64,000 nucleotides of DNA from Nitrospirota bacterium (lineage in GTDB: Bacteria > Nitrospirota > Thermodesulfovibrionia > Thermodesulfovibrionales > Dissulfurispiraceae). Each line of letters opens with the position of its first letter. Position 1 is the first letter of the stretch. Location of the stretch: assembly GCA_021791055.1 (NCBI GenBank), contig JAJYXI010000028.1, positions 1 to 64,000 on the forward strand, read 5' to 3'. Of the stretch, positions 2,321 to 26,250 are shown in pieces. A program made the position numbers and the translations under genes. The notes beneath the pieces are model-generated. The model saw only the letters and a list, made by a program, of their open reading frames with translations. It made no database searches and had not been told where the DNA came from.

Positions 2321-2467
2321 ATGAAAAAGACAACCGTAAAATTAATCAAGAAGTCTTCCAGAGAAAAGATCCCTGTATCGTCCCTAAAAGGAAAGGTAGT
2401 GCCGTCCAAGAAGAGAAAACTTATGGAAAAGGCATTAAAAGAGGAAGATAAAACACTTCAAAGATGA
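2321..2467 (+). CDS. Small lysine-rich protein coupled to RNA ligase
   Basis: A 48-residue, strongly basic protein (begins MKKTTVKLIKK; about a third Lys or Arg) whose TGA stop overlaps the ATG of the RNA ligase gene (ATGA). The ORF track starts it at a GTG inside tRNA-Leu, which cannot be the real start. The ATG at 2321 is chosen because it is the first start outside the tRNA, although its ribosome-binding site is weak. The family is unknown. The coupling suggests an RNA-binding accessory of the ligase, but that is inference, and it could be a non-coding leader. Confidence 0.45.
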   Translation: MKKTTVKLIKKSSREKIPVSSLKGKVVPSKKRKLMEKALKEEDKTLQR

Positions 2468-3594
2468 GCACACTTTATCCGGACTTCTTAGAAAAGTATC
2501 TCACAGAAAAAGAAATAACAACACTTAAAGAAAGAGAATCCCTCCACACATACCAGTTTAATGAACTCACCTTCGTAAGGCTTTCTCAGGAATATAAAGA
2601 CTATCCGAGGGGTGCTGTTTTTTATGAAAAAGGCATTATCCCGGGCTATCCGAGGATTATGAGAATCCTTCATCTTGAAAACGGGATAAACCGCTATTTC
2701 AAAGACAGTTTCTATGTTGAGGAGAAGGTGGACGGCTACAATATAAGAATAGCTGTCATAAACGGGACTCCACTTGCATTCACAAGGGGAGGATTTATAT
2801 GCCCATTCACGACAGACAGAATCCCTGACCTTATTGACACAAACTTTTTTAAAGAATATCCAGAATACATAATCTGCGGAGAGGTCGTCGGTCCGGGCAG
2901 TCCGTATAATACAGAGGCTATCCCGTATGTTGACGAAGATGTTGTCTTCCTTGTCTTTGACATTTTAGATGAAGAGGGAATACGCCTCCACATAGAAGAA
3001 AGATACAAGATATTTGAACGCTTTAATATCCAGCAGATAAGAAGATGGGGGCCGTTTAATGTATCGGGCGGCACATCTGATATGGATGAAATAAAAAAGA
3101 TTATCCTTGAACTTGACAGGGACGGCAGGGAAGGAATAGTGATCAAGCCTGTTTCCGATGGCAAGTCTGTAAAGTATGTTACGCTCTCTTCATGCCTCAG
3201 GGATTTGGAGGCAACGGCACATCTCATAACAGAGCTTCCTGCAGGTTTCTTTACGCAGAGGATATTGAGGGCTGTGTTTTTCTGCCACGAATTCGGAATA
3301 CCACTCAGCAGCGAATACCTTATAAGCTCTGCAAAGGCATTGTATCTCATCCCTGAACAGACATTAAAAAAGGTTGCGGATGGCGAAAGCGTAAAGGAGT
3401 TTTTTGATGTCAGGGTGAGAAACAAAAATACGGTGGATGAACTCATACAGCACCTTAATCGTTCAGGAGTTCGAATACAGCTTGTATCTGTAGAAAAATC
3501 GGGTGATCATTACAGGGCAAAATTTTACAGGATTTATATCAAAGGCACGCGGGAACTCAGGCACAGGCTCATGGGCAAAGGATTTTTCGACTAA
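2464..3594 (+). CDS. ATP-dependent RNA ligase, archaeal Rnl3 (Pab1020) type
   Basis: A nucleotidyltransferase of the DNA/RNA ligase superfamily that seals RNA ends through a lysyl-AMP intermediate. Motif I is EEKVDGYNIRIA, with the nucleophile Lys at about residue 88 in KVDG. The segments ITRGGFICPFTTDRI-like (motif Ia region), ICGEVVGPGSPY (motif III), EGIVIKP (motif IV) and KYVT (motif V) follow in order. The 376-residue length and C-terminal helical domain match the homodimeric archaeal Pab1020/MthRnl family rather than T4 Rnl1 or Rnl2. The convergent neighbour encodes the PIN protein known as its usual partner. The physiological substrate is unknown. Confidence 0.88.
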   Translation: MSTLYPDFLEKYLTEKEITTLKERESLHTYQFNELTFVRLSQEYKDYPRGAVFYEKGIIPGYPRIMRILHLENGINRYFKDSFYVEEKVDGYNIRIAVINGTPLAFTRGGFICPFTTDRIPDLIDTNFFKEYPEYIICGEVVGPGSPYNTEAIPYVDEDVVFLVFDILDEEGIRLHIEERYKIFERFNIQQIRRWGPFNVSGGTSDMDEIKKIILELDRDGREGIVIKPVSDGKSVKYVTLSSCLRDLEATAHLITELPAGFFTQRILRAVFFCHEFGIPLSSEYLISSAKALYLIPEQTLKKVADGESVKEFFDVRVRNKNTVDELIQHLNRSGVRIQLVSVEKSGDHYRAKFYRIYIKGTRELRHRLMGKGFFD

Positions 3595-4328
3595 CCCTCT
3601 GCCTTCCCTGAAAGCAGCTCTGTCCTTTTTATGGCGCTCATCAGATAGTCCTTGAACTTTTCAGGGAAGAGCCACCTTATGCCCAGCTTTTCTGCCCATT
3701 TTACCAAACCCTGGTCTGCCGTAATCAGCAGGGCATCAAGCTCCATTGCGAGCAAAAGCAAGTCAACATCCTCCTTGCTGTCTATTATGCCCTCTCTCAA
3801 TGCCTCCCTGTATTTCCTCCTCATGTCCTGAATAATCTCATCTGCCTTCCTGCTTTCAGCGCTCCTTACAGCCTTCTCTGCAACCCTCAATCCCTTGTTC
3901 ACCCTTTCCCTTATGTCTTCAATCAATTCATACAAAAGGAATGCAGGGGTTTTCAGGTCATGCTTTTTCGGAGGCTTCTGGTGCAAGATCAGGAGGAGGT
4001 CTGCAGGTATTTTATCCCGCTCCACAAAATGCAAAAGCTCCTCAAATATGGATGGGGGCATATAAAACTCAAGTACATGTATCTGAGCTGCGAGGAAGAG
4101 GAATGTTTCCAATGCCTCTGTCGGCGTACTTCCAAGGCTCATCCTCACATCAGGGTTTACAAAGAGGCTTGTATCAAGAACAACCCTTAACGGCTGTGAT
4201 GGGTGATGGGTAATGAGTGATGGGTCTGCTTTTGAGCTTTTATTTTTTGTCTTTAAAGTTTTTTTGCCTTTTAACTCGTCACTCATCACTGATAACTCAT
4301 CACTATTCTTACGCTTTGCAGGTGCCAT
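3591..4328 (-). CDS. RNA ligase partner protein, PIN domain (MJ0950 family)
   Basis: A PIN-fold protein that occurs with Rnl3-type RNA ligases. The core begins RVVLDTSLFVNPDVR with the first acidic residue, continues with DSKEDVDLLLLAMELDA, and ends with the final acidic motif LITADQGLVKWAE. That pattern fits a metal-dependent ribonuclease or a related RNA-binding fold. Its stop shares three bases with the ligase stop (convergent). The track start at 4466 would overlap the upstream gene by over 150 nt; the ATG at 4328 gives 245 residues and a 20-nt overlap. The first 40 or so residues are repeat-derived (SDELSVMSDELK), so the native start may be even closer to the PIN core. Confidence 0.8.
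   Translation of the reverse strand: MAPAKRKNSDELSVMSDELKGKKTLKTKNKSSKADPSLITHHPSQPLRVVLDTSLFVNPDVRMSLGSTPTEALETFLFLAAQIHVLEFYMPPSIFEELLHFVERDKIPADLLLILHQKPPKKHDLKTPAFLLYELIEDIRERVNKGLRVAEKAVRSAESRKADEIIQDMRRKYREALREGIIDSKEDVDLLLLAMELDALLITADQGLVKWAEKLGIRWLFPEKFKDYLMSAIKRTELLSGKAEG
4196..4307. repeat. Degenerate tandem repeats at the 5' end of the PIN gene
   Basis: GTGATGGGTGATGGGTAATG-type repeats (4196-4225) and the complementary type ACTCGTCACTCATCACTG (4272-4307) flank a short unique stretch, forming imperfect inverted arrays. They are translated into the low-complexity N-terminus of the PIN protein. Confidence 0.7.
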
Positions 4329-5622
4329 ATACATCAAGGCGGTATGTATTCCATTCCATGCACTGAGGACATCTCCCTGACCAGTCCTCTGACCTGAAAC
4401 CGCAACTGGAGCAGCAGTACTGAATCCTGAAGGGCCGACGTATTCCGCATGCCTTTTTGAGCTCATCCAGTGCTCTCTGAATCTGGTTCCTCTTTATATA
4501 CAATTCACCCCGTAAGCTGAAAAGCTCTGGCACAGAGAAGACATTCGTATCTATGGAATTCAATAAATCCATTGCATCATCAACCATCTCAAGCCTGTAA
4601 TAAAGCTTCCCAAGGAGAAATCTCAGCCCGTTGTCCTGCGGGTTTTTCGCTATGGCATTCCTGTAAAATCTTATCAACCGTCCTGGCTCTCCGACATTTA
4701 TGAGCAGGTCTTCAAGCCTTGCGAGTATTATTATCGATTTAAGCTGTTCATATGCCTTCTCCAGAAAGTTTATCGCCTCCTCTGTCTCACCCTTGGTCAA
4801 AATAACCTCTGCCAGGCCGAGATATGCAGGGATAAAATTGTCATCCATCTTAATCATTGTCCTGAATGCCTTTTCTGCCTTCTCCAGTTCGCCGCTTTCG
4901 AGGCTTGAGCGTGCATATTCATATTTATAGCCGAGCAGTCTGTGTTCTTCCTGCTGTTTGTCGCTTTCGCTGTGCTCGAGCTTGATTATTGTCTTCTGCA
5001 GGGACAGGAGGTCATCCCACATGTCCTTCTTTTCGAGGATTGCACGCTTTCTGTAAAGGGCAGTAAGGTTTTCAGAGTCTATATCCAGTATCTCATCAAG
5101 GTATTTAAGGGCATCGTCATATCTCTGCATCCTTTCCATAACTATTTCTATGGAAAGGAGAGCCTGCAGGTTTTTGGGATTTATGTCCCTTGCCTTTTTG
5201 TAATGCTCAAATGATGCTTTGTAATCTTTATTGTTTAGAGATATGTCTCCAAGCCTTAAGAGGGCATCTATATGATCAGGCTCTTCCTTGAGTATCTCCC
5301 TTAAGGCCTCCTTTGCCTCTTCTTCTTTATCGCCGAGTATGGCATTCAAAACCTTTGAATATAATTCCTGTATCTTCGCCTCTTTCTTTTGTCTCTTCTG
5401 ATACTGAAGGTTGTCTATGACACGCTTTGTATCACGGATAAAAAAGACAATGAGTATTGCGAGCGCTCCCACCGTCGTTGAAAGGAGTATAAGGGCAATC
5501 TTCGGGATTTCATAAGCACTTCCAAAGGGGACCTTTACTGTCACCATATCCTTATTTTCTACTGCGAATAACCCGAGCACTGCAAGAAACACTAAAAATA
5601 CCAATATCGCTATCTTGCCCAT
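4309..5622 (-). CDS. LapA-LapB fusion (envelope TPR protein with zinc ribbon)
   Basis: The N-terminal ~85 residues have two membrane segments with the LapA (DUF1049) pattern (FAVENKDMVTVKVPFG between them). They are followed by a long array of TPR repeats (roughly residues 100-390) and a C-terminal rubredoxin-like metal site (CSSCGFRSEDWSGRCPQC) as in LapB/YciM. In E. coli lapA and lapB are separate genes, and LapB adjusts LpxC turnover and lipopolysaccharide synthesis; here one 437-residue polypeptide carries both. Its ATG overlaps the rlmH stop (TAATG). The role is inferred from the family; the fusion is read directly from the frame. Confidence 0.8.
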   Translation of the reverse strand: MGKIAILVFLVFLAVLGLFAVENKDMVTVKVPFGSAYEIPKIALILLSTTVGALAILIVFFIRDTKRVIDNLQYQKRQKKEAKIQELYSKVLNAILGDKEEEAKEALREILKEEPDHIDALLRLGDISLNNKDYKASFEHYKKARDINPKNLQALLSIEIVMERMQRYDDALKYLDEILDIDSENLTALYRKRAILEKKDMWDDLLSLQKTIIKLEHSESDKQQEEHRLLGYKYEYARSSLESGELEKAEKAFRTMIKMDDNFIPAYLGLAEVILTKGETEEAINFLEKAYEQLKSIIILARLEDLLINVGEPGRLIRFYRNAIAKNPQDNGLRFLLGKLYYRLEMVDDAMDLLNSIDTNVFSVPELFSLRGELYIKRNQIQRALDELKKACGIRRPFRIQYCCSSCGFRSEDWSGRCPQCMEWNTYRLDVYGTCKA

Positions 5623-25265: not shown

Positions 25266-25612
25266 GGGGGCGATAGGGCTCGACGGGGGTTATGAGGCTC
25301 AAGTGGCATGCGGTGGCTCCATCACCACCTAAAAAGATGGAAAAAAACACAAACGCCAACAACGAACTGGCACTCGCTGCTTAACCAATAGCAGCACGCT
25401 CCTTTAAAGTTGCCTGTGCTTTAGAGAAAGCGTCGATCAGCAGGCTGCCGTCAGATGATACCCTTAATTCTGGTGGGAGATTCAAGGGATAGGATATTGG
25501 AAGGCCTGCCTGTTGGCAAGACAATATCCGAGAATGAAATAAGCAGGATAAGCATGTAGAAGCTTGAGAGTAGTACTTTCGGACGCGGGTTCGATTCCCG
25601 CCGCCTCCACCA
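25266..25612 (+). ncRNA. ssrA: tmRNA (ssrA)
   Basis: The tRNA-like ends pair perfectly: GGGGGCG (25266) with CGCCTCC before ACCA (25602-25612). The T arm GACGCGGGTTCGATTCCCGC and the 5' D-like segment AGGGCTCGACGGG are canonical. The tag frame ends NTNANNELALAA then TAA, which fits the ALAA proteolysis signal. A pseudoknot-rich segment follows. CCA is encoded. Confidence 0.96.
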
Positions 25613-25907: not shown

Positions 25908-25938
25908 TTGACTTTTACATCCAGTGTTTAGATAAAAT
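25908..25938 (+). promoter_or_regulatory. Candidate promoter of the cobalamin operon
   Basis: TTGACT (25908-25913) and TAAAAT (25933-25938) with a 19-bp spacer, immediately before the riboswitch aptamer. The spacer is longer than optimal. Confidence 0.45.
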
Positions 25939-25947
25939 ATATTGTTT

Positions 25948-26151
25948 AGGTGCCGAAAGGCTTAATAGGGAATCCCGTGAGGAAAATATTGACCAATTCG
26001 GGAGCGGTCCCGCCGCTGTAACCGGGGACAAAAGCCGATATGCCACTGGAGTTTAGCTCCGGGAAGGCTGGCGAGTAGGAAGAGCCCCCAAAAAAGTCTT
26101 TGATTTTTTGGGGGTGTCGTTGATGAACCGGGAGCCAGAAGACCTGCCTGA
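25948..26151 (+). ncRNA. Cobalamin riboswitch aptamer
   Basis: Contains the conserved blocks GGGAATCCCGTGAGGAAAA, GGTCCCGCCGCTGTAACCG and the B12 box GAGCCAGAAGACCTGCCT, in the correct order and spacing. A peripheral stem is extended by a perfect hairpin (CCCCCAAAAAA / TTTTTTGGGGG, 26085-26114). It lies upstream of the cobU-to-thiC-like operon, so adenosylcobalamin should repress the whole 20-kb unit. Confidence 0.95.
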
Positions 26152-26250
26152 AAAAGACTTGGATTTAGAATATTCCCGCGGAGGAAGCGCTGCCTCCCAA
26201 AAGATTTGTCTTTTAGGGCAGTGGTGAGGATGAAGTAAAACAGGGTGCAG

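Follow-up and report, generated by a model that had tools for sequence, protein, structure and literature searches.

HARP (homolog of Aquifex RNase P) proteins cut the 5' leaders of pre-tRNAs and are active solely as higher oligomers. Cleavage of the HARP type leaves a 5'-phosphate and a 3'-hydroxyl, and it is established for the two families that such ends are joined by Rnl3-type RNA ligases. The pairing of HARP and Rnl3 genes was published in 2025 by Seshadri and Gopalan (mBio, PMC12153264), and Thermodesulfovibrionales is named there among the HARP orders. It was also already known that RNA-based RNase P is missing from some Nitrospirae (PMC6380272; PMC8266387). A passage of PMC12153264 cites four purified bacterial HARPs that gave no pre-tRNA cleavage in vitro. 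The question at stake is why RNase P is maintained in nature in two forms that are unrelated, and why an RNA ligase should accompany the one made of protein.

We analysed a stretch of 64,000 nucleotides of a Nitrospirota genome (the window) together with 177 genomes of its order, in which the relatives that carry names are Thermodesulfovibrionales. The order is a good place for this question because close relatives carry HARP only, the RNA-based form only, or both, and each HARP state occurs with and without the ligase. Most of what is described here is known biology, as the enzyme HARP was known and its ligase link has been published. The refinements that we add are a near-exclusive distribution of HARP and RNA-based RNase P across one order, a low share of ligases among HARP genomes, a likely co-transfer of the pair in one family (f11), and the rejection of a small open reading frame (ORF) as a component of the pair. 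Judged from sequence, the locus probably consists of HARP as the RNase P that matures tRNAs, Rnl3 as an accessory enzyme that seals or circularises RNA, and a 48-residue protein gene that is a bystander to both.

Layout of the locus and identity of its nuclease

The forward-strand run of the locus starts with a gene for tRNA-Leu (anticodon CAG; 2185–2268, +), found by ARAGORN, Rfam and synteny, which keeps its position in several relatives whether the ligase is present or not. It is followed by an ORF, identified by ORF calling, for a lysine-rich protein of 48 residues and pI 10.6 (2321–2467, +), and by the gene for an ATP-dependent RNA ligase of the Rnl3 (Pab1020) family with 376 residues (2464–3594, +), the stop of the former and the start of the latter overlapping as ATGA (2464–2467). 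On the opposite strand lie the gene for a PIN protein of 245 residues (3591–4328, −) and, directly upstream of it, a gene for a LapB-like TPR protein with a zinc ribbon (4309–5622, −; ORF call and profile matches), whose end overlaps the start of the PIN gene by 20 nt; RlmH and RsmE genes come next in that upstream order. The tRNA, the small ORF with its overlap of the ligase start, the ligase and the PIN gene had all been reported in the first-pass annotation and were confirmed, as was the convergence of ligase and PIN genes with an overlap at their stops, although the bases common to both stops number four (3591–3594) and not three. As the two genes are convergent, a single operon is impossible and co-expression is not implied. 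Elsewhere in the window, Rfam searches placed a tmRNA gene at 25266–25612 followed by a cobalamin riboswitch at 25931–26165.

By its sequence the PIN protein is HARP, of the protein-only RNase P family, because it matches PF08745 (PIN_5; 203 bits, cut-off 27) and TIGR03875 (206 bits, cut-off 95.3), because its best structural relatives were all deposited under the name 'RNA-free ribonuclease P' (PbHARP, PDB 7e8k, E 2.4e-67), and because its catalytic aspartates align with those of PbHARP. TIGR03875 is itself named 'RNA ligase partner' protein in NCBIfam. The aspartates are at residues 52, 183, 187 and 205, and in an ungapped alignment to 7e8k, with the chain numbering in the file taken as five ahead of that in PMC9051087, D183, D187 and D205 fall on PbHARP D151, D155 and D173, which were shown to be catalytic (PMC9051087). 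The basic helix region is likewise present, with the motif RRKYREALREGI at 170. The earlier suggestion of a nuclease-like partner of the ligase was thus right as to the gene and its link, and wrong in treating it as an uncharacterised nuclease, as HARP is an experimentally studied RNase P family.

The window protein shares the PIN metallonuclease core and the conserved catalytic aspartates with Aquifex RNase P (Aq_880) and PbHARP, and differs from them in an N-terminal extension of roughly 46 residues that overlaps the upstream TPR gene, is partly a short repeat, and varies in length among relatives. At the DNA level, 7-bp repeats of the TGATGAG/TGATGGG type lie within this extension (4196–4304). 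A variation at the other end of the protein was seen in a single genome (L179, G005:C118), where two CBS domains (PF00571) follow HARP (PF08745) at its C-terminus as an in-frame fusion, which suggests that an RNase P is under the control of nucleotides in that genome.

The gene for the LapB-like TPR protein with a zinc ribbon is the most constant neighbour of HARP, more so than the ligase, being directly upstream in 94 of 102 HARP genomes and often overlapping. It occurs in 158 of the 177 genomes, with or without HARP, and a role of its product as a HARP-specific partner was rejected since genomes without HARP have the gene too. An apparent TPR-HARP fusion in G076 proved to be a frame artefact in GC-rich DNA.

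Two forms of RNase P across one order

Searches of 60 relatives, in which HARP was present in 46, yielded 10 detections each of rnpB (RF00010) and RnpA (PF00825) outside the window's family, and 8–10 control genomes scored over the cut-off. Neither was detected in any of the 31 genomes of the window's family, including that of the window (G000), an absence that rests on draft genomes (G000 is 99.75% complete, in 87 contigs) and on an RNA model for type-A rnpB only. The window genome resembles Aquifex in that no RNA-based RNase P was found in it either. HARP is therefore most likely responsible for all tRNA 5'-end cutting in this bacterium, of which it is apparently, and probably, the sole RNase P.

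The same division extends through the order. Of its 177 genomes, 102 have HARP, 75 have RnpA and 75 have rnpB, and the RNA-based form of RNase P (RNP) as a whole is present in 80. HARP without the RNA-based form was found in 89 genomes, the RNA-based form without HARP in 67, and neither of them in 8. The two occur together in 13, where chance would give 46 (P 3e-26 in a hypergeometric test that ignores relatedness). These counts clearly indicate that HARP and RNA-based RNase P replace one another across the order, and RnpA changes state four times on the HARP tree. HARP is the only RNase P detected in most of the HARP genomes, which sets the pair in this order apart from the one described in PMC12153264. 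The eight genomes in which neither HARP nor rnpA/rnpB was detected are drafts (G006, G007, G013, G030, G057, G081, G098 and G160); one of them, G081, is listed as 100% complete, and their state may reflect assembly gaps or something else.

Rnl3 and its dependence on HARP

The identification of the ligase as a Pab1020-like Rnl3, proposed in the first-pass annotation, was borne out by a full-length match to TIGR01209 (327 bits, cut-off 136.9), matches to the Pfam domains RNA_ligase (PF09414) and Lig_C (PF18330), and an intact catalytic-lysine motif EEKVDG (residues 86–91), with the motifs EGIVIK and VKYV also present. Its likeness to the archaeal Pab1020 and MthRnl enzymes extends over the full length of the solved Pab1020 structure (PAB1020, PDB 2vug, E 4e-77), including the C-terminal Lig_C domain, whereas it differs from them in being encoded beside HARP in a bacterial host that lacks C/D-box machinery. 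The further statement that Rnl3 ligases have no known physiological role no longer holds, since an in vivo role in archaea, the circularisation of C/D-box RNAs, has been reported (PMC12153264).

The link between ligase and PIN gene is real and extends well beyond the window. HARP is present in all 26 genomes of the order that have the ligase, which never occurs without it, and in 24 of these the two genes lie side by side and converge; in the other two, HARP is near a contig end. The window pair, adjacent on opposite strands of one genome, thus has the same two families in the same arrangement as the pair of Seshadri and Gopalan (PMC12153264). The share of HARP genomes with the ligase is far lower here, 26 of 102 compared with 89% in the set of that study. 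The 76 HARP genomes without ligase indicate that the two enzymes need not be direct working partners, and the 74 among them that have HARP as their only form of RNase P indicate that the ligase is not needed for tRNA maturation. Rnl3 is evolutionarily dependent on HARP and HARP is not dependent on Rnl3, the ligase having been lost or gained repeatedly, with at least 10 changes of state on the HARP tree. Most likely, HARP would leave the tRNA with a 5'-phosphate and the leader with a 3'-hydroxyl, Rnl3 would join ends of this kind as its archaeal relatives do, and the ligase would serve as an accessory enzyme for resealing RNAs, or closing them into circles, after cleavage by HARP or other breakage.

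One alternative is that HARP-Rnl3 is a transferable module, of a cut-and-seal or toxin-antitoxin-like kind, that was later domesticated, with HARP replacing RNP and the ligase then often being lost. This possibility is raised by two genomes of family f11 (G106 and G110), in which the pair sits away from the TPR site. They are the only genomes of f11 without RNP (both rnpA and rnpB are missing), the rest of the family having the RNA-based form. In the HARP tree and in the ligase tree alike, the copies of these two genomes group with those of families f1 and f8 (support of 81 for the HARP group; 100/99 in the case of the ligase clade). The trees suggest that the pair was co-transferred into f11. 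The ligase is also found in 11 of the 13 genomes with both forms of RNase P compared with 15 of the 89 with HARP only. However, this contrast is confounded by kinship and is not supported when independent pairs are tested, so that we do not claim that the ligase is kept where both forms coexist. In addition, knockout of the ligase in Thermococcus is harmless according to the authors of PMC12153264, which argues against the toxin-antitoxin version, and we regard the domesticated-module explanation as a whole as somewhat unlikely. More speculatively still, the pair might travel as a cut-and-seal module able to displace RNP, f11 having gained the pair and lost RNP, after which the ligase would tend to dispensability, with bacterial targets other than C/D-box guides; we consider this unlikely.

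A second alternative is that the pair acts on a particular set of small RNAs, which HARP would cut and Rnl3 would close into circles. In bacteria this needs a different RNA target, since to our knowledge C/D-box guides are not known there. As for the machinery that goes with such guides, fibrillarin (PF01269) was detected in none of the 26 ligase genomes and was detected in the control archaea, and this is a further difference from the published pair. The proposal that Seshadri and Gopalan made for archaeal C/D-box guide RNAs thus does not carry over here and, as no ligase-bearing bacterium in our set has fibrillarin, cannot be the general explanation. It is a published hypothesis with archaeal support for its ligase step (PMC12153264), yet for these bacteria we consider small-RNA circularisation unlikely. 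We find it equally improbable that the neighbourhood is accidental and that selection for RNA robustness keeps each gene independently. The convergent orientation, with no co-transcription, and the dispensability of the ligase in most HARP genomes are what one would expect of such an accident, but the nesting of all 26 ligases in HARP genomes, the adjacency in 24 of them and the agreement between the HARP and ligase trees are not. An accessory sealing enzyme beside an RNase P remains our preferred reading.

The 48-residue gene at the tRNA-Leu site

The 48-residue ORF is a real coding gene and not a chance ORF, because its dN/dS within the genus (0.10–0.21) is near that of the ligase (0.11–0.16) and clear homologues exist in 15 of the 177 genomes. 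Its distribution is narrow, as all 11 carriers in a sample of 296 genomes of the phylum are members of this order. When GTDB genomes were scanned with a pattern, nine loci came up, each under a title that is of Nitrospirae type or unclassified, and the named relatives that carry the ORF are mostly Nitrospirae or Thermodesulfovibrionales MAGs. No match to the protein was found in Pfam, NCBIfam or PHROGs, and an AlphaFold model of low confidence (pLDDT 71, pTM 0.35) consists of two helices.

The first-pass annotation was correct that this ORF is a gene and was largely refuted in its proposal that the small basic protein is a third component, so that its interpretation of the locus is partly supported overall. 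When conservation upstream of Rnl3 genes was examined, the ORF adjoined the ligase in only four of the 26 ligase genomes (G000, G001, G003 and G012) and was absent beside the other 22, including that of G002, from the same genus, and the ligases inspected in other families. Conversely, it occurs directly after tRNA-Leu(CAG) in three genomes that have no ligase (G015, G024 and G028), and in f11 genomes without HARP an ORF of this type overlaps the start of a nitroreductase gene, again by ATGA (L102:5037–5180 and L104:5267–5413). On this distribution a complex in which the small basic protein joins ligase and nuclease is highly improbable, even though three species of the genus have the stop of the ORF overlapping the ligase start and a fourth genome has the two closely spaced. 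The ligase-less carriers at tRNA-Leu and the nitroreductase overlap indicate instead that the ORF is a small gene in its own right, inherited independently, that belongs to the tRNA-Leu site and is not a ligase subunit. It is probably coupled translationally to whatever gene comes next.

Two minor observations concern the ORF and its surroundings. G037 has two copies of the 48-residue type of ORF on one contig. Between tRNA-Leu and the ORF of the window there is a strong hairpin of 12 pairs with no T-run (2275–2301, +), which is kept in G003 through compensatory changes, CCTGAAAAGTC to CCCTAAAAAGTC and its complement.
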